Shown here: positions 25,184-33,026 of the stretch, in pieces
Layout of the letters: each line of letters starts with the position of its first letter
How positions within the stretch are numbered: position 1 is the stretch's first letter
NCBI RefSeq assembly: GCF_030295405.1
Contig: NZ_AP027080.1
Coordinates: 3,580,001-3,644,000 of the forward strand
Reading direction: 5' to 3'
Length of the DNA stretch: 64,000 nucleotides
Source of the DNA: Mesoterricola silvestris
GTDB lineage: Bacteria; Acidobacteriota; Holophagae; Holophagales; Holophagaceae
Translations under genes and position numbers: made by a program
The notes under the pieces: model-generated
Database searches by the model: none
The model's input: only the letters and a program-made list of their open reading frames with translations
Told to the model about the DNA's origin: nothing

Positions 25184-26038
25184 ATGATCCACCTCTGGCG
25201 CGAACTCACCGTTGCCGCCGCGGCCTTCGCCGCGGGCACCATCAATTCCATCGCCGGGGGGGGCACGCTGATCTCCTTCCCAGCCCTCCTGGGCATCGGC
25301 CTCACGGGACAGCAGGCCAACGTGACCAGCACCCTGGCCCTGTGGCCCGGATCCATCGGGGGCTTCCTGGGGCACCGGGAGGACCTGAAGGGCACCCGCC
25401 GCTTCGCCCTGCGCCTCGTGCCCCCTTCCCTCCTGGGCGCGGCCCTGGGCGCCTGGCTCATGCTGGCCACGCCGGCCAGGACCTTCGACCTCCTCATCCC
25501 CTGGCTCATCCTCACCGCCACCCTCCTCATGGCCGCCAACGATTCCATCTCCAAGGCCCTGGGCCACGTCCACGGCGGGGAGCGGAGCCGGACCTGGTGG
25601 ATGGGCGCCGTCTTCTTCCAGTTCCTGGTGGGCATCTACGGCGGCTTCTTCGGCGCGGGCATCGGGATCCTCATGCTCGCCGCCCTGAGCCTCCTGGGCC
25701 TCACCGACATCCACCAGATGAACGGCCTCAAGAACTTCCTGGCCCTGTCCATCAACGGCGTGGCCATCCTGCTGTTCCTGGGCGCCGAGTTCCTCTTCCA
25801 CGGCCGCAACGTCGTGTGGGGAACCGCGGCCCTCATGGCCGTGGCCGCCATGGGCGGGGGGTTCTTCGGCTCCCACATGGCCCACCGGGTGGGAAGGAAG
25901 ACCGTGCGCGCCATCGTCGTGGGCGTGGGGTTCCTCCTCACCGCCTGGTACTTCTACAAGATCCACAAACCGGCCGTTCCTGCGGTCCCCGGCCTCATAA
26001 TCCATACGTCCAACAATCCGGTTTTCGGAAACAAGTAG
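25184..26038 (+). CDS. TauE/SafE-family permease
   Basis: 284 residues, about eight membrane segments. The family signature is seen twice as inverted halves: AGTINSIAGGGTLISFPALL near the start and GIYGGFFGAGIGILMLAAL in the middle. Such proteins export sulfite, sulfoacetate or similar sulfur-containing anions, or act in metabolite efflux; the substrate is unknown here. It begins ten bases after hyaD on the same strand and may be read through from the hydrogenase operon, although a functional link is not evident. Confidence 0.88.
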   Translation: MIHLWRELTVAAAAFAAGTINSIAGGGTLISFPALLGIGLTGQQANVTSTLALWPGSIGGFLGHREDLKGTRRFALRLVPPSLLGAALGAWLMLATPARTFDLLIPWLILTATLLMAANDSISKALGHVHGGERSRTWWMGAVFFQFLVGIYGGFFGAGIGILMLAALSLLGLTDIHQMNGLKNFLALSINGVAILLFLGAEFLFHGRNVVWGTAALMAVAAMGGGFFGSHMAHRVGRKTVRAIVVGVGFLLTAWYFYKIHKPAVPAVPGLIIHTSNNPVFGNK

Positions 26039-26102
26039 TAGGTCGTGTTTGCTTAGGTAGGAGGCCCAGGCGCCCGGAGAGGTGCGCCCGGGGCGGTCCG
26101 AC

Positions 26103-26510
26103 TCATCGCACCGCAATGCATTTGATGGTCCGTTCCCCCGTTCCATCGGGGCGCGAAGTTCCACGCCCGGTTGAAAAGGTGACGGGCATGGCTTCCTCAA
26201 TGATGACCCACCCGGTCGGGACCGGCGAGTTGCGCCGGACCTTTTCCACGTCCCCCAACCGGGCCCCGTTCAGGTTCTTGATCCGGAATGTCAGGCTCGA
26301 GGCAGGTACCTTTGGGGCGATTCCTACCCACATCTGCGTCGGACCTAGGACTTCGATGACAACCCAACCCGTTGGGATCTCAGAATTCCCTTTGATATCC
26401 AGGACGTCCCCAAAGCCAGCGAACCCGGCGGACGTACAAAAGGCAGACAGGGCGACAGCGCGTACCCAATGGCCACTATTCGCGGGGGAGGTTGCTATGG
26501 ATTGTCCCAT
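26103..26510 (-). CDS. Secreted protein with duplicated IPxGW motif, unrecognised
   Basis: 135 residues from ATG 26510, with GGAGG five bases upstream. A signal peptide (VRAVALSAFCTSAGFAG) is followed by two copies of a short unit about 52 residues apart: FGDVLDIKGNSEIPTGWVVIE (without its last residue, near 33-52) and LGDVEKVRRNSPVPTGWVII (near 85-104). KNLNGA precedes the second copy. The divergent gene at 26770 carries the same units, so the two are distant paralogs. I do not know the family. A small periplasmic or surface beta domain is likely from the pattern of short hydrophobic strands. Confidence 0.65.
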   Translation of the reverse strand: MGQSIATSPANSGHWVRAVALSAFCTSAGFAGFGDVLDIKGNSEIPTGWVVIEVLGPTQMWVGIAPKVPASSLTFRIKNLNGARLGDVEKVRRNSPVPTGWVIIEEAMPVTFSTGRGTSRPDGTGERTIKCIAVR

Positions 26511-26769
26511 GAGTCCTCCGGTCTCCAGAGCGGAAGGGTGATTCAGTCCCCCGGGCTCTTTCAGAGTTAAACCTGATCCGCCGCGGCAACAGGTTCCGCT
26601 CCGCCCCGTGAACCACAGAGCTGGGTCGTCCTTCCGGAGCGCCCGGCATGGCCAAAACCGGTTTCGCGGCCTTGGAACCCAATGGATATCCCCGGCATTA
26701 CTGGTTCTATCCGGGAGTTCACCGTCACGGTCGATGGCTGGTGGCCCCGTTCAACAGAAGGAGGAACGT
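26511..26769. other. Divergent region between the two IPxGW genes
   Basis: Less GC-rich than neighbouring intergenic DNA, with strong ribosome-binding sites at both ends (GGAGG before 26510 and AAGGAGG before 26770). No convincing -35/-10 pair or palindrome was recognised. No further gene is supported. Confidence 0.4.
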
Positions 26770-27303
26770 ATGCAATGGATCTCCTTTCCCCATTTTCTGC
26801 CGGTAGTATGGCTTCTGTCCGGTGCCGTGAACGTGTGGGCCGGTTGCGGTGAGACCTTGACGGTCGAGAACAAACTCGGAACACGGATCTCTCCCGGATG
26901 GGTCATCACCGGGCAGTCCCATTCCGGGCCCGACCACTACAGCCCCCATTTCCCCGCCAAGCACTACCTAACCCTTGTAAACCTCAACGGGGCCCCCGTG
27001 GGCACGGTCATCGAGGTGCTGGGCTTTTCCCCCATCCCGCCGGGCTGGGCAAAGACCGCAACCTGGGGCGCCGAAGACATCGTGGAGCGGACGCACTTCA
27101 ATCTTCGGCATCGGATCGAAAAACAATTTGCAGCCGACTACCCCTTGGCGGACCAGGACACTCCTCCCGTAATTTATGGCGAGGTGGAATTCGACATAGC
27201 CTCAATTGATTGGAAGAGATCGGACGAGAAAAGGAAGCGGGAAAGGGAAGAGGCGGAAGAAAAAGCACCCACCCCGGCAGGGAGCTACATGCCTGCGCCT
27301 TGA
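26770..27303 (+). CDS. Secreted protein with IPxGW motif and charged tail, unrecognised
   Basis: 177 residues from ATG 26770, behind AAGGAGG. A signal peptide (FLPVVWLLSGAVNVWAG) is followed by GTRISPGWVITG (37-48) and then LVNLNGAPVGTVIEVLGFS leading to SPIPPGWAK (87-95), matching the repeat unit of the divergent gene. The C-terminal part is different: an acidic, then strongly charged helix rich in Lys, Arg and Glu (about 149-168) and a proline-rich end. An in-frame upstream extension lacks a signal sequence and is rejected. The shared motif and head-to-head order suggest one ancestral duplication. Confidence 0.65.
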   Translation: MQWISFPHFLPVVWLLSGAVNVWAGCGETLTVENKLGTRISPGWVITGQSHSGPDHYSPHFPAKHYLTLVNLNGAPVGTVIEVLGFSPIPPGWAKTATWGAEDIVERTHFNLRHRIEKQFAADYPLADQDTPPVIYGEVEFDIASIDWKRSDEKRKREREEAEEKAPTPAGSYMPAP

Positions 27304-27388
27304 ATCCCGTGTTTGCCCGAGCACGTCCGGAAACGGCCTTCCAGGATTCTTGGTGTTACGCCTTTGCATGACCTTCCCCCTTTCCTGT

Positions 27389-29773
27389 TCAGGGTTCCTT
27401 GAACCCCTTGGGCCTCCATTTTGCGCCCCAGGAATCCATCCCCAGTTCCCTTGCGAGCTGGCAAAGGCTTCCCAGCTCGGATGGACCTGGCTCCCCACCT
27501 GCAGCTGCCAGGGCTTCCAGCATCTCGTCGGCCTCCCGGGTGCGGCCCAGTCTAAGCAGGCTCTCCAGCAGCGGCCGGCTTAATTCCCAACTCCAGTTCT
27601 GGTAATAGCCCAGAACGGCCGCCGGGTGCTTGGCGCGGAGAAGCTTTTCCACCTCCTTCCGTCGAACCATCCAGCGCGGTCCAAGCAGGTCCGCCAGGTC
27701 CTGCCAACGCTCCTGGAGCTTAAGCCCATCCGCGGCAGCCGCCAGGATTTCCTGGGGCGGCCAGGCTCCTGGCAACGTCATGGGGCTCGGAGCCAAGCTG
27801 TCGAGGAAAGGTGCCAGTGGGCGATCCCAGTGGGGGGCAAAGGCAAACCATAGCCTCCAGAGGTCCATGTCGGTCGGGCACCGGCCAAGACCGGATTCCA
27901 GCCGGGGCAGGATCCGCCGCGCAAGACTTTCGGCCTCCAGGGCCTGGTTGCACTCGCCCAGTTCGCGGGGGGTGGGAACCCGCACCTGGGCTGCGCGCAT
28001 GACCCCTGGGCGACAGCCCAGGGGATCTCTCACAAGCTGCTCCAGGACAGCGAAGAAGGTCCGCCACGCCTCGATTTCAGGTCCGAGCATGGAGCCCGGC
28101 GGGTTAGGCCCCTCGGTCCGCTCCTCATGCCGAGCCCAGGCGATGGTGCCCCGGAGCCGGACCTCGATGGCGAGGGCCCCCAGGTGCTCCGGGTTCCGCT
28201 GGCGGAAGCCGACAACCCGGTCCAAATCCACGGGGAGACCCCGAGCCTTGTACTCGACCATCAGTTGCCCGCCCGTGGGAAGACGCTCCCCATGGAGCAG
28301 GGTCCGGCCTTGGGCGTCCAACAGTGCCCATCGTGGTCCCTGACCTTTCCAACCCAAGCGGTGGACCCAGGATGCTGGTACCTCCTCGAAGCCCAGGGTC
28401 ATGCCCAGCATGCGGAACGGCTTGTCGAAACCAGGGGGCGGGCCTTCGATCCCTTGACCCTGGTGGAAGAGGACCCGGTCGTGGCCCAGAAGGCCCTCCC
28501 TGGGGACCTGGACTGGGAGGGCCTGGATGGCGGTAATCCACATCGGAACCAAATCCGCACGCTCCAGAGATCGTGCCAGCCTCACGAGCCGGGTCTCCAA
28601 GCCGAGCGGAATCCAGCTTCCGTCCAGCTCCCCCAGGAGGGCGGGCACTTCGGACTCGCCGCCGGAGCGGACCAGGGCCTCGACCAGGGGAGAGAGCAAC
28701 TGGGCCCAGACCGTGTCCCGCTCCGCCACGCTCCACTTCTCGCTTTCGGCGGCGCTGGCCTCCGGTGGCAGGAGACAGGCCTTCCCGTAGAATGCCAACT
28801 TGGGCCGGACCAGATGGGCCCAAAGCGCCTGCCCCACTTCCATGGCGCCTCGCCAGTCTCCGGTTCGCTTTGCCTCCGCGTGGATGCGTTGAGCCAGGGT
28901 TCCATAGGGCATCATGGCCGCCTCGACGGGTCGGACCTGGAACCAGGTGATCCCTTCCAGGGCCCGCAACAGCCCGGGCTCCCCCAAGGCCTGATCCATT
29001 CGCAGGAGGTTGAACCAGGCTGGAGGGTATTCCGGGAAGCGCTGCACCTCCTTCAGCAGGCTGGGCCGGTGGCGCCGGTACAGGGCCTTCATCAGGGGGC
29101 TATGCCGCTCCGGCACGCCCTCGGGCAGCAGACCCCGGTCTAGGTTGAGGTTCAGCCCCACCCACCGCCCATCCTGGAGCAGCCAGTCCAGTTCCTGGGC
29201 CATCGGGCCCCAGACGCGGACATCTGCCTCCGGGGAGAGCTCCCGGCCCTTGTCCGCAGGCAGGTTCTGGAGTCGCGCCAGAAGCCGCGGGCGAAGGGCC
29301 CGGGCCAGGTCTAGCCGGGCCTCGTCATGGTCCGGCCGTTCCTTCAGGAAGGCCTGGAGCAGGGCCACGGGGTTCCGCTCTCCGCCCGCCTCCAACGCTC
29401 GGGCCAGGCTGTCGGCGTTGGGCAGACCGAGGCCCGAGGCCAGGGCCTTCCCGTCCCGGCCCAGTAGCACCCAAGCACGGGGTGCCCGGGCGGCGGTGCC
29501 CAGGCCCCCTCGTTGGCGAAGGGCGGCTCCTTGGGTCCGCGACTCGCCTCCGTCCTCCGAAACCTCCCGCCCCGCGACTCCCAGGTCCACCATCGCATCT
29601 GTTGCCAGCAGCTCCCAGAACCGGGGCCCCTGTTCGGCGAGGTCCCTCCTTGGGCCCAGGGCCACAAGGACTGGACCCCGGGGCGCTTCCAAACCTACCG
29701 GATTCAGGGCTTGGGCGAAACACAGGAAGGATGACATTTCAATAATTATATGAAGAACTTGCTCAATCAGCAT
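27389..29773 (-). CDS. Large hypothetical protein with helical repeats, probably secreted
   Basis: About 794 residues from ATG 29773; a TTG four codons earlier and an ATG twelve codons later are alternatives, and none has a strong ribosome-binding site. The N-terminus is hydrophobic (MLIEQVLHIIIEMSSFLCFAQA) and signal-like. Residues ~40-140 look like a degenerate thioredoxin-type domain (PRAWVLLGRDGKALASGLGL), followed by ERPDHDEARLDLARAL and many Leu/Ala/Trp-rich helices like a TPR or alpha-solenoid. No cysteine pair typical of thioredoxin is visible. Function unknown. It lies 21 bases after the 29795-30319 gene on the same strand, so the pair is probably co-transcribed. Confidence 0.65.
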   Translation of the reverse strand: MLIEQVLHIIIEMSSFLCFAQALNPVGLEAPRGPVLVALGPRRDLAEQGPRFWELLATDAMVDLGVAGREVSEDGGESRTQGAALRQRGGLGTAARAPRAWVLLGRDGKALASGLGLPNADSLARALEAGGERNPVALLQAFLKERPDHDEARLDLARALRPRLLARLQNLPADKGRELSPEADVRVWGPMAQELDWLLQDGRWVGLNLNLDRGLLPEGVPERHSPLMKALYRRHRPSLLKEVQRFPEYPPAWFNLLRMDQALGEPGLLRALEGITWFQVRPVEAAMMPYGTLAQRIHAEAKRTGDWRGAMEVGQALWAHLVRPKLAFYGKACLLPPEASAAESEKWSVAERDTVWAQLLSPLVEALVRSGGESEVPALLGELDGSWIPLGLETRLVRLARSLERADLVPMWITAIQALPVQVPREGLLGHDRVLFHQGQGIEGPPPGFDKPFRMLGMTLGFEEVPASWVHRLGWKGQGPRWALLDAQGRTLLHGERLPTGGQLMVEYKARGLPVDLDRVVGFRQRNPEHLGALAIEVRLRGTIAWARHEERTEGPNPPGSMLGPEIEAWRTFFAVLEQLVRDPLGCRPGVMRAAQVRVPTPRELGECNQALEAESLARRILPRLESGLGRCPTDMDLWRLWFAFAPHWDRPLAPFLDSLAPSPMTLPGAWPPQEILAAAADGLKLQERWQDLADLLGPRWMVRRKEVEKLLRAKHPAAVLGYYQNWSWELSRPLLESLLRLGRTREADEMLEALAAAGGEPGPSELGSLCQLARELGMDSWGAKWRPKGFKEP

Positions 29774-29794
29774 ATGTATTTTCAACTCTTGCTC

Positions 29795-30319
29795 TTATCT
29801 ATTTTTAAAATATTCATTTATTCCACGCGCAGACGTAACCCAATTTGATTTCACATTAATTACATCATGGCAATTGGAACATGTGCTCAGCATCTCGAGG
29901 CTTCTGCTCATCATGTTTGCATACGCAGCCATGGTAACGGAAGAATGGGGAGGGATATTCACCGGATAGGCCCGGGTGAGACTGACGACCACCGAAGTCC
30001 CTACCCTGGCACAGGCCGAGCCCAGGCTGATGGACCCGTCGAATTCGCTCCTCACCTCCCCCCGGACTTCCTGTGAAAAGGATTGCATGACCGCAGTCTG
30101 ATTATTGAACGTATTATAGAATAACTGTTGCCCATTCCTGGGATTAACCCAGTTCGCGCCAACCGAGCCACTCGGGATATCCAAACGCCCAGAACCGTGG
30201 GCGCACATGCTGGCACCCGGCGTTACAGACTGGCCCATCAATCGCCAGCCTGAAGATGCGCCAATCACCAATGCCATCCAGCCGAGACCGGTCCTGCCAA
30301 GTCCACGTAATCCTTGCAT
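29795..30319 (-). CDS. Small secreted protein with a CxxCH motif, unrecognised
   Basis: 174 residues from ATG 30319, with GGAG about six bases upstream. A signal peptide ends near SSGWRLMGQS. The C-terminal part contains CSNCH (147-151), a single c-type haem attachment motif, and further cysteines occur at about 39 and 103. One isolated CxxCH can occur by chance, so haem binding is only a possibility. The DNA is clearly less GC-rich than the core genes around it, which suggests a different origin. It is upstream of the large hypothetical gene on the same strand. Confidence 0.6.
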   Translation of the reverse strand: MQGLRGLGRTGLGWMALVIGASSGWRLMGQSVTPGASMCAHGSGRLDIPSGSVGANWVNPRNGQQLFYNTFNNQTAVMQSFSQEVRGEVRSEFDGSISLGSACARVGTSVVVSLTRAYPVNIPPHSSVTMAAYANMMSRSLEMLSTCSNCHDVINVKSNWVTSARGINEYFKNR

Positions 30320-30620
30320 GGTTTCTCCTGAAGGACCCAATTGGGGTGCGGAGCCGACGCCCTGACTCCAACGCAGGTCATTCGGCGAGGCAATGCCTTC
30401 ACCACGAATGTCCGTATTCTGAAGATGGTTTCCGTTTATACCCAATATTATAATTTAATAGAAACCTCAGTTCATCAACTCGCACTTGTTGGTTGGTCCC
30501 GGCGTTAAGGCGTGGTCATGAAACCACCGGGAACTCCGCTTTGCCCCGAGCGCATCCCTCGATGCCTTCGGGATCCACTCATGAATAGCCATGCACCACC
30601 GTCCCGCCACGGAGGCTTCC
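30320..30620. other. Intergenic region with an AT-rich, symmetric TATAAT
   Basis: No gene is supported between the two divergent small secreted-protein genes. At 30446-30458 a short AT-rich stretch holds ATTATAAT, which offers a TATAAT on both strands and could serve as the -10 of either neighbour. No good -35 partner was seen. Confidence 0.4.
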
Positions 30621-30911
30621 ATGCCGTTCCCCGCCACCCCTCTGATCCTTGCCGCGCTCCTTGTCCTGGAGACCCCCTGCACGACCCTTGAGGAGGCCAA
30701 AGCCGTTGCTGAATGTGACACCCTTGGCGAGGCGGTAACGGCCCGAAAGACCCTACAAACGGACGGGACGAAGGGATGGGAGGTGCTGGTGCATATGCCG
30801 GGGAAGAAGAGGGGTTGGCGCTGCATCATCGACTGGGATCTCGGCAAGGTCCGACTCAAGGACTCCATCCCAAACCCGCCCTCCAGGACGCATTGCCCCC
30901 GCTCCGCCTGA
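30621..30911 (+). CDS. Small putative secreted protein
   Basis: 96 residues from ATG 30621, preceded by GGAGG at a good distance. The first ~20 residues (FPATPLILAALLVLETPC) look like a signal sequence. The rest, with WEVLVHMPGKKRGWRCIIDWDLGKVRLKD, suggests a small folded domain with two or three strands. No family is recognised. The upstream in-frame ATG at 30591 would add ten polar residues before the signal and lacks a ribosome-binding site. Confidence 0.5.
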   Translation: MPFPATPLILAALLVLETPCTTLEEAKAVAECDTLGEAVTARKTLQTDGTKGWEVLVHMPGKKRGWRCIIDWDLGKVRLKDSIPNPPSRTHCPRSA

Positions 30912-31172
30912 GGGGTTCCTCCTTGCGTTCCGAATGGAATACCGCTCGGGTCCCTTCGCGTGCATTTTCTGATGGGCAACACCTTCGGGGCATTCCCGGT
31001 CCTTGGAGGCTGCCATGCGTTGCTCGCCTTCCCTGATCAGGGTCGGCGCAGGTCGGTCGCCACGCAAGGCCCCTCGCAGCCATCCACTCAGGTGAAGCCC
31101 AGCCCCATCGTCTCCTACGGACTCCAACGAGGCCGCCTGCCCGGCCGAGAACCGGGGCCGAACGTCCTGGTC

Positions 31173-33026
31173 CTACCGCGGCGGTCCCAGGAACGTCCAG
31201 GGGCTCTTCAGGAACTCCCGCCCCAGCCAGCTCAGTTCGCGGAAACCCGTCACGCCCCGGGCCTTCATGGCCGTCCTCAGGGCCAGGTGGAACGATACGC
31301 CGAAATTGCAGATGCCGATGAGGACGATGCTGGCGAGGCCCCAGGCGATGTCGGTCCACCGGGGCGCGTCCTGCACGGCGCAGAGGGCCAGGGACGCGGC
31401 GTTGAGGGTCACGTGGCGGACCTCCACGCGCAGGCCCGCGAAGGCGAAGGCCACGGGCAGGAAGCCCAGGAGCATGCCCAGGGCCACGTAGCCCACCACC
31501 CCGCTGAAGTGGCGCCCGACGCCGCGTCCCAGGGCCTCGGCCCCGGCGGGGCCCAGCCAGTTGCGGAGGCGGCGGTGGCCGGCCACGGCCTCGGGAAGGC
31601 GGCGGTACGCGCTCCAGTTCGCGGCCCAGCCCGCGGCGAGGCTGGACATCCAGAGCAGCACCCCGGTGAGGATGGCGAAGGGGATGGTCCAGGAAAGGAA
31701 GGGATGGAGCCCGTGGAGGCTGTGGGCGGCGGTGGCGGGGTCCACGAAGGGGCGCCCCAGGACCCGCATCCAGGCCAGGGCCAGCACCGCGGTGACGGGG
31801 ATCGTCACCAGGACGTTGCCGGCGGTGGCCATGGCCTGGCTGCGGGTGATCCCGGCCACCAGGGCCCGGAGGCCGTCCCGGGAACGGCTGTCCTCCAGGG
31901 CCCCGGCGAGGCTCGCGGCGGTCATGGCGGGCTGCTTGGAGGCGAGCGTCAGGCCCAGGAACTGCATGGCCACGAAGCTGAGGGTGTAGTTGGCCGCGAA
32001 GCCCAGGCCCCCCACCAGGGGCGCGACGGCGGCCGCGGCCAGGGCGTATTTGAAGAAGGCCGTGAAGGCCGTGAGGGCGCCGCCTCCGGCGGCGGACCAG
32101 AAGGTGCTCACCCACTCCCCGCGGGATTCGGCGATGTAGTGCTCGCCGGTGCGCCCCGTGTGCTCCACCACCTTGCGGGCCATGTGGCGGAGGGAGCCCT
32201 TCACGAGGGTTCCCAGGCGCCGGGCCCGGGCCTTCCTCCGGATCAGGTCGGCGGCGAAGGCCCTGCCCCCGAGCCGGCCCTGGATGACATCCACCAGCCT
32301 GCCGCACCGCTCCACATGGGCTTCCAGGAGGTCCAGGCGGTACACCAGCTCCGAGCTGGTGCCGTGGCTCTCCAGGTGCTCGTGGGCCCGGGCCAGGCGC
32401 CGCCGGCAGTCCTCCAGGAGCCCGGTCCAGCCCGGGTCCCCGCCCCCGCGGAGCACGGCCGCGGCTTCCGGGAGCCGCGCGAAGGGGGAATCCAGTTCCC
32501 GCTCCTGGGGCCCCAGGCCCAGGAGATCCCGGGCCAGGCCCAGGGCCGCGGCCCGGTGGGCCAGGAGCTGGACGGCGTCCCAACGGGCCTCGGCGGGCAC
32601 GGCGAGGAGCTCGTCCCAGAGGCCGTCCCCGGCGGGGAGGGCCTCGAGCCAGTCCGCGTCGGCTTCGTCCAGTTCCAGCCGGTGCAGCAGGGCGGAGAGA
32701 TCGTTCTCGGGGTCGAGGCTGGGCACGAAGCGGTCCACGAGGAGCTCCACCGCCTCCCGCAGGAAGGATCCGTGGGTGGGCAGGCCCGCGTCGGCCAGGA
32801 GGCCCACCGCGCTGGTGTGGCCCCACACCGCCTGGATCCGGGCCTTCCAGCCCGCGCCGAAGGGCCTCAGGTCCAGGTGCTCCTGCAGTTCCTGGAGGCG
32901 CCGGAACCGCTCGGAGGTCAGGCCCCCCTTCGGATCCCCGTCCAGGACCCACCGGAGGAGCCCCTCGAACCAGGCCTCGTCGGCGCCAGGGGCGGCAAGC
33001 ACCTTGGTGAGGAGAATGGAAGCCAT
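31173..33026 (-). CDS. SpecificRecomb-family membrane protein (COG4389)
   Basis: 617 residues. The N-terminal half is soluble and helical (LRFL-type repeats, EHLESHGTSSELVYRLDLLEAH), and the C-terminal half has several membrane segments. FVAMQFLGLTLASKQPAMTAA, the NVLVTIPVTAVLAL stretch and the closing GFRELSWLGREFLKSPWTFLGP are recognisable for this family. It is named site-specific recombinase after gcr of Neisseria, but it lacks the active-site pattern of tyrosine or serine recombinases and is an integral membrane protein, so the name is probably misleading and the function unknown. It stands alone on the minus strand, with AGGAT before the ATG. Confidence 0.8.
   Translation of the reverse strand: MASILLTKVLAAPGADEAWFEGLLRWVLDGDPKGGLTSERFRRLQELQEHLDLRPFGAGWKARIQAVWGHTSAVGLLADAGLPTHGSFLREAVELLVDRFVPSLDPENDLSALLHRLELDEADADWLEALPAGDGLWDELLAVPAEARWDAVQLLAHRAAALGLARDLLGLGPQERELDSPFARLPEAAAVLRGGGDPGWTGLLEDCRRRLARAHEHLESHGTSSELVYRLDLLEAHVERCGRLVDVIQGRLGGRAFAADLIRRKARARRLGTLVKGSLRHMARKVVEHTGRTGEHYIAESRGEWVSTFWSAAGGGALTAFTAFFKYALAAAAVAPLVGGLGFAANYTLSFVAMQFLGLTLASKQPAMTAASLAGALEDSRSRDGLRALVAGITRSQAMATAGNVLVTIPVTAVLALAWMRVLGRPFVDPATAAHSLHGLHPFLSWTIPFAILTGVLLWMSSLAAGWAANWSAYRRLPEAVAGHRRLRNWLGPAGAEALGRGVGRHFSGVVGYVALGMLLGFLPVAFAFAGLRVEVRHVTLNAASLALCAVQDAPRWTDIAWGLASIVLIGICNFGVSFHLALRTAMKARGVTGFRELSWLGREFLKSPWTFLGPPR

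Follow-up and report, generated by a model that had tools for sequence, protein, structure and literature searches.

Divergent genes of Mesoterricola silvestris appear to encode short members of a widespread, unnamed family of secreted tandem beta-repeat proteins

A divergent gene pair on an insertion

P0001 is a 135 aa predicted secreted protein encoded on the minus strand at 26103-26510 of the window, i.e. the 64,000-nucleotide stretch analysed here, which covers positions 3580001-3644000 of the Mesoterricola silvestris genome, a single contig of 4.99 Mb. P0002, a predicted secreted protein of 177 aa, is encoded divergently on the plus strand (26770-27303). An earlier sequence-only reading had described these two ORFs, and both were confirmed at their positions with the motifs it had quoted. 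The intergenic region comprises 259 bp (26511-26769); a consensus scan found no sigma-70-like site in it. Both genes have a GGAGG a few bases 5' of the start codon, and both products begin with a signal-peptide-like N-terminus (all judged by eye). Each protein contains two IPxGW units. The motifs are SEIPTGWV and SPVPTGWV in P0001, with tryptophans W49 and W101 at a spacing of 52, and RISPGWV and SPIPPGWA in P0002, with W44 and W93. In either protein, the second motif is preceded by NLNGA..G.V..V. Past IPxGWV, the unit includes one more strand ('TIKCIAVR', 'LTLVNLNGAP'); both units of P0001 are therefore complete. P0002 ends in a charged C-terminal tail.

Both genes are located on an insertion of about 5.2 kb (25967-31173), which is missing at the same site in the congeners G001, G004 and G005. 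There, about 110 bp (G004), 2 bp (G005) and 97 bp (G001) separate the TauE gene from the gene found here at 31173-33026, which defines 25967-31173 as inserted. The GC content of the insertion is 0.626, that of its flanks 0.674 and 0.712. GC3 amounts to 0.67 for P0001, 0.70 for P0002 and 0.56-0.77 for two other genes of the island, as against 0.92-0.97 for the flanking genes. Since the congener sites are empty and GC3 is low, the island was likely acquired horizontally. No integrase was detected among the ORFs scanned inside the insertion.

The insertion also carries a gene for a 798 aa TPR-like protein (27389-29785, minus strand), which has a 42% relative elsewhere in G001, and two smaller ORFs of 216 aa (29795-30445; very low GC3) and 106 aa (30591-30911). 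None of these three products has a clear family. The similarity of the TauE/SafE gene (25184-26038) to its congeners ends at base 25966; its C-terminal tail differs over about 23 residues and was apparently supplied by the insertion.

Homology and distribution of the repeat unit

In a two-sequence BLASTP comparison, P0001 and P0002 are homologous with E=2e-7, and at E<=0.01 they are the only copies in their own genome. In the search of the genome, the family profile matches the two-unit domain of P0002 (26845-27096, plus strand) with E=3.5e-17. When a profile was built from 66 unit segments of other bacterial phyla alone, without any Holophagaceae unit, P0001 scored 56.5 bits and P0002 39.4 bits, compared to shuffle maxima of 8.2 and 7.0 (2,000 shuffles each). 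The units of this profile were chosen by the pattern P-x-x-W, so full conservation of P and W within them is by construction, which does not apply to the scores of P0001 and P0002. A four-unit Haliscomenobacter profile yielded 14.3 and 10.9 bits, whereas 500 shuffles of each protein reached at most 5.7 and 6.5. Profile-profile comparison gave 98.7%; as the two alignments have one Holophagaceae protein in common, this result is circular in part, and the 66-segment shuffle test is cleaner. The IPxGW unit is more than a chance resemblance. The sequence-only reading was right that each protein holds two copies of a shared unit, and the similarity, whose disappearance in a profile comparison it had considered, persists in the 66-segment and the profile-profile comparison.

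The unit has a length of about 36 to 52 residues and is built around the motif Ile-Pro-x-Gly-Trp-Val. Its consensus is nlnGApyGaeltvmsgSpIPaGWViisstgsswtIk, with P, G, W and small and aliphatic residues conserved. A strict pattern scan of 84,980 species found 38 loci. Twenty-one of them clearly belong to the family and encode between 2 and about 10 units in tandem; as the pattern is strict, this number is a lower bound. The remaining 17 were attributed to chance by their reading frame and lack of repeats. Members, which are predicted to be secreted, were found in the Bacillota (Paenibacillus, Fontibacillus, Bacillus sp. FJAT-28004 and Brevibacillus) and elsewhere in Chromobacterium sphagni, Aquimarina, another member of the Bacteroidia, the Saprospiraceae and a Holophagaceae MAG, so that the family is spread over Bacillota, Bacteroidota, Pseudomonadota and Acidobacteriota. 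Except for one fusion of 1321 aa, the proteins comprise 135-407 aa. A Haliscomenobacter plasmid encodes a relative of five units with extra cysteines. The Aquimarina members contain a lipobox-like sequence and are, hence, presumably lipoproteins.

Within the same family of bacteria, 3 of 77 genomes carry the unit. This suggests that it is dispensable and is silent on its role. In the phylum-wide sample, one of 396 genomes carries it, in a search of reduced sensitivity. The congener G003 encodes two relatives, P0003 and P0004, on different contigs, and P0003 has two units. The 1321 aa protein is encoded in G017, another genome of the Holophagaceae; four units, each about 36 aa long, form its N-terminus, and PKD, four Ig-like domains and a right-handed beta-helix come after them. 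Searches of viral contigs with single proteins, alignments and the pattern revealed no relatives, and neither plasmid searches with P0001 and P0002 nor phage searches with their relatives gave a match.

Several further sequences were encountered. P0004, a relative of P0002 (L006:1477-2034), retains the first unit and continues with unrelated sequence after the SP of the second; this break inside a unit possibly marks a pseudogene or a recombination point. In another genome of the same phylum, a 93 aa cysteine-bearing protein with no obvious signal peptide (L024:1489-1770) could be a two-unit variant (17.8 bits, shuffle maximum 5.4). P0008, a secreted-looking protein from a Streptomyces plasmid common to two strains (L026:2914-3282), resembles two cysteine-bearing units and is left doubtful because its 6.4 bits lie below the shuffle maximum of 9.1. 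One viral pattern match contains a stop and was ascribed to chance. Among weak same-family matches (E about 0.006-0.01), four of the eight loci were read: three lie in a transketolase-like ORF and one in an unrelated ORF, and the matches were rejected on this reading.

The sequence-only reading had also suggested an ancient duplication into a pair. What it had missed is that the unit extends beyond this pair: it is a widespread tandem repeat, located here on a probably acquired island. In a tree based on 79 usable columns, P0002 and P0004 are sisters (support 98/95). P0001 joins them with a support of 95/69 at a point where long branches meet. Holding all four Holophagaceae proteins together was not clearly rejected (p-AU 0.055), and the highest identity of P0001, 41%, is to a Paenibacillus segment. 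Nowhere else were two such genes observed head to head; in G003, they are on different contigs. The shared unit stands; for an ancient duplication into a head-to-head pair, the support of 95/69 is not decisive. It is plausible that the pair arose by duplication; P0001 and P0002 may be duplicates or co-acquired paralogues.

Predicted structure and comparison with known families

The sequence-only reading had raised the question of a single beta domain. AlphaFold2 predicts the five-unit Brevibacillus protein with a pLDDT of about 97 over the five units and a pTM of 0.75. Each unit in this model has three strands, one before the SPIPxGW loop and a hairpin after it. The two-unit domain of P0001 (26106-26420, minus strand) is predicted with six strands, three per unit (pLDDT 83, pTM 0.73); its long linkers are of low confidence. 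Both models point to a beta module.

P0001 and P0002 match no entry of Pfam or NCBIfam up to E=10, nothing meaningful in PHROGs and nothing significant in sequence searches of the PDB. Ten relatives showed only short, inconsistent and mostly summed matches in Pfam and NCBIfam, none of them convincing. Foldseek found no match in the PDB at E<=0.001 for the Brevibacillus or the P0001 model and no match in BFVD for the five-unit model. A literature search for IPSGWV returned no paper. The earlier statement that no named family has this pattern thus holds for all these collections, and a strong hit to an SH3-like or Ig-like domain did not appear in Pfam, NCBIfam or Foldseek searches. Matches of long arrays to CBM65, PUA, ANAPC10 and beta-lactamases were rejected, being mostly sums of tiny repeated matches that depend on the member and include no passing stretch. 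DUF7694 was discarded as well: one Paenibacillus variant alone scores 28.4 (cut-off 27), over 26 residues, and its gathering score was reached neither by the nine other members nor by P0001 or P0002.

Could the unit be a divergent version of a known small beta fold, i.e. WW-like, MABP beta-prism-like or Listeria GW-module-like, and bind peptides, lipids or teichoic acids accordingly? WW domains start with P-x-G-W and form a small three-strand sheet. The IPxGW unit shares this start, followed by a hairpin, the three strands and a similar length, and two of three weak profile matches in the PDB are WW domains (E of 0.36 for a chain in which P-x-G-W segments occur twice, E of 0.71 for a YAP1 fusion). 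However, a second W 18-24 residues past the first, where WW domains have theirs (spacing about 20-22), is present in none of 67 units. The MVB12-associated beta-prism (MABP) 3tow has the highest Foldseek probability among the matches listed, 0.23, but with E=0.49 and TM-scores of 0.14 and 0.20 it is not significant. Listeria GW modules comprise about 80 aa and are SH3-like. They share with the IPxGW unit the secreted state and the Gly-Trp dipeptide, whereas P0001, P0002 and ten relatives lack a Pfam match to them, WW domains also being missed for P0001 and P0002, and no fold match is significant. Conserved GW dipeptides are described for the cell-wall-binding domain of IspC (PMC10714868). With no candidate reaching significance, we consider such a kinship quite improbable.

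The PKD and Ig-like arrays of bacterial surface proteins are likewise extracellular tandem beta modules and occur in the same chain as the unit in the G017 relative. In contrast, the unit itself has no significant sequence or fold match to either; on two arrays, summed matches of a PKD-like kind stayed below the threshold. It is possible, and put forward here with reserve, that IPxGW represents an extracellular repeat fold not described before, which has a ligand class of its own, moves between phyla by horizontal transfer and grows by unit duplication.

Putative function of the arrays

The units contain no conserved polar set that looks catalytic. At ten loci read by eye, the repeat genes are solitary and no neighbouring gene was seen to recur; this speaks against both an immunity partner and an enzyme encoded in an operon. 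Extracellular binding modules are commonly found together with PKD, Ig-like and beta-helix domains. Together with the tandem units, the apparent export and the one fusion to such domains, these features favour extracellular binding or adhesion as the role of the arrays, a reading that we prefer with a confidence slightly short of even. The unit is predicted to consist of a strand, an S-P-I-P-x-G-W loop and a beta-hairpin. Since the units follow one another in tandem, with 2 to about 10 per protein, duplication could extend an array. The proteins would leave the cytoplasm by their N-terminal signals, the Aquimarina versions as lipoproteins. The units may stack, each offering an identical small surface, and several copies would provide avidity. 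The pair of M. silvestris would have reached the genome on the horizontally acquired island. It counts against a binding role that two-unit proteins such as P0001 give little avidity, that the charged tail of P0002 has no counterpart and that a multi-domain architecture was seen only once.

Small size, apparent secretion, horizontal movement and a patchy distribution across phyla would also fit a role in inter-bacterial conflict as a secreted inhibitor, a toxin or a protein of the immunity type, whose repeats would form a scaffold around a partner protein. One Brevibacillus member matches the Tsi3 model with 23.6 bits. This is, however, far below the cut-off of 45 and applies to one of ten members tested, and a toxin or partner gene recurs beside none of the ten loci, so that this role appears unlikely. 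A structural part of an extracellular layer or matrix, with arrays that assemble or coat the cell and have no foreign ligand, would agree with the regular tandem units, the absence of catalytic-looking residues and the lipoprotein-like Aquimarina versions. Against it speak the small size of all proteins but the fusion, the frequency of short arrays and the lack of export or anchoring genes beside the repeat genes at the ten loci; its probability is low, too.

Extracellular binding or adhesion remains the preferred reading. P0001 and P0002 are probably short members of a widespread, unnamed family of tandem beta-repeat proteins with predicted export. As this family occurs in at least four bacterial phyla and has no Pfam, NCBIfam or PHROG entry, its description would fill an annotation gap. 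The regular, short and confidently predicted beta unit, present in arrays of varied length, would make it a ready model system. The standalone genes allow the function to be tested by simple deletion, and the empty congener sites point to a recent gain or loss of IPxGW genes within the genus.
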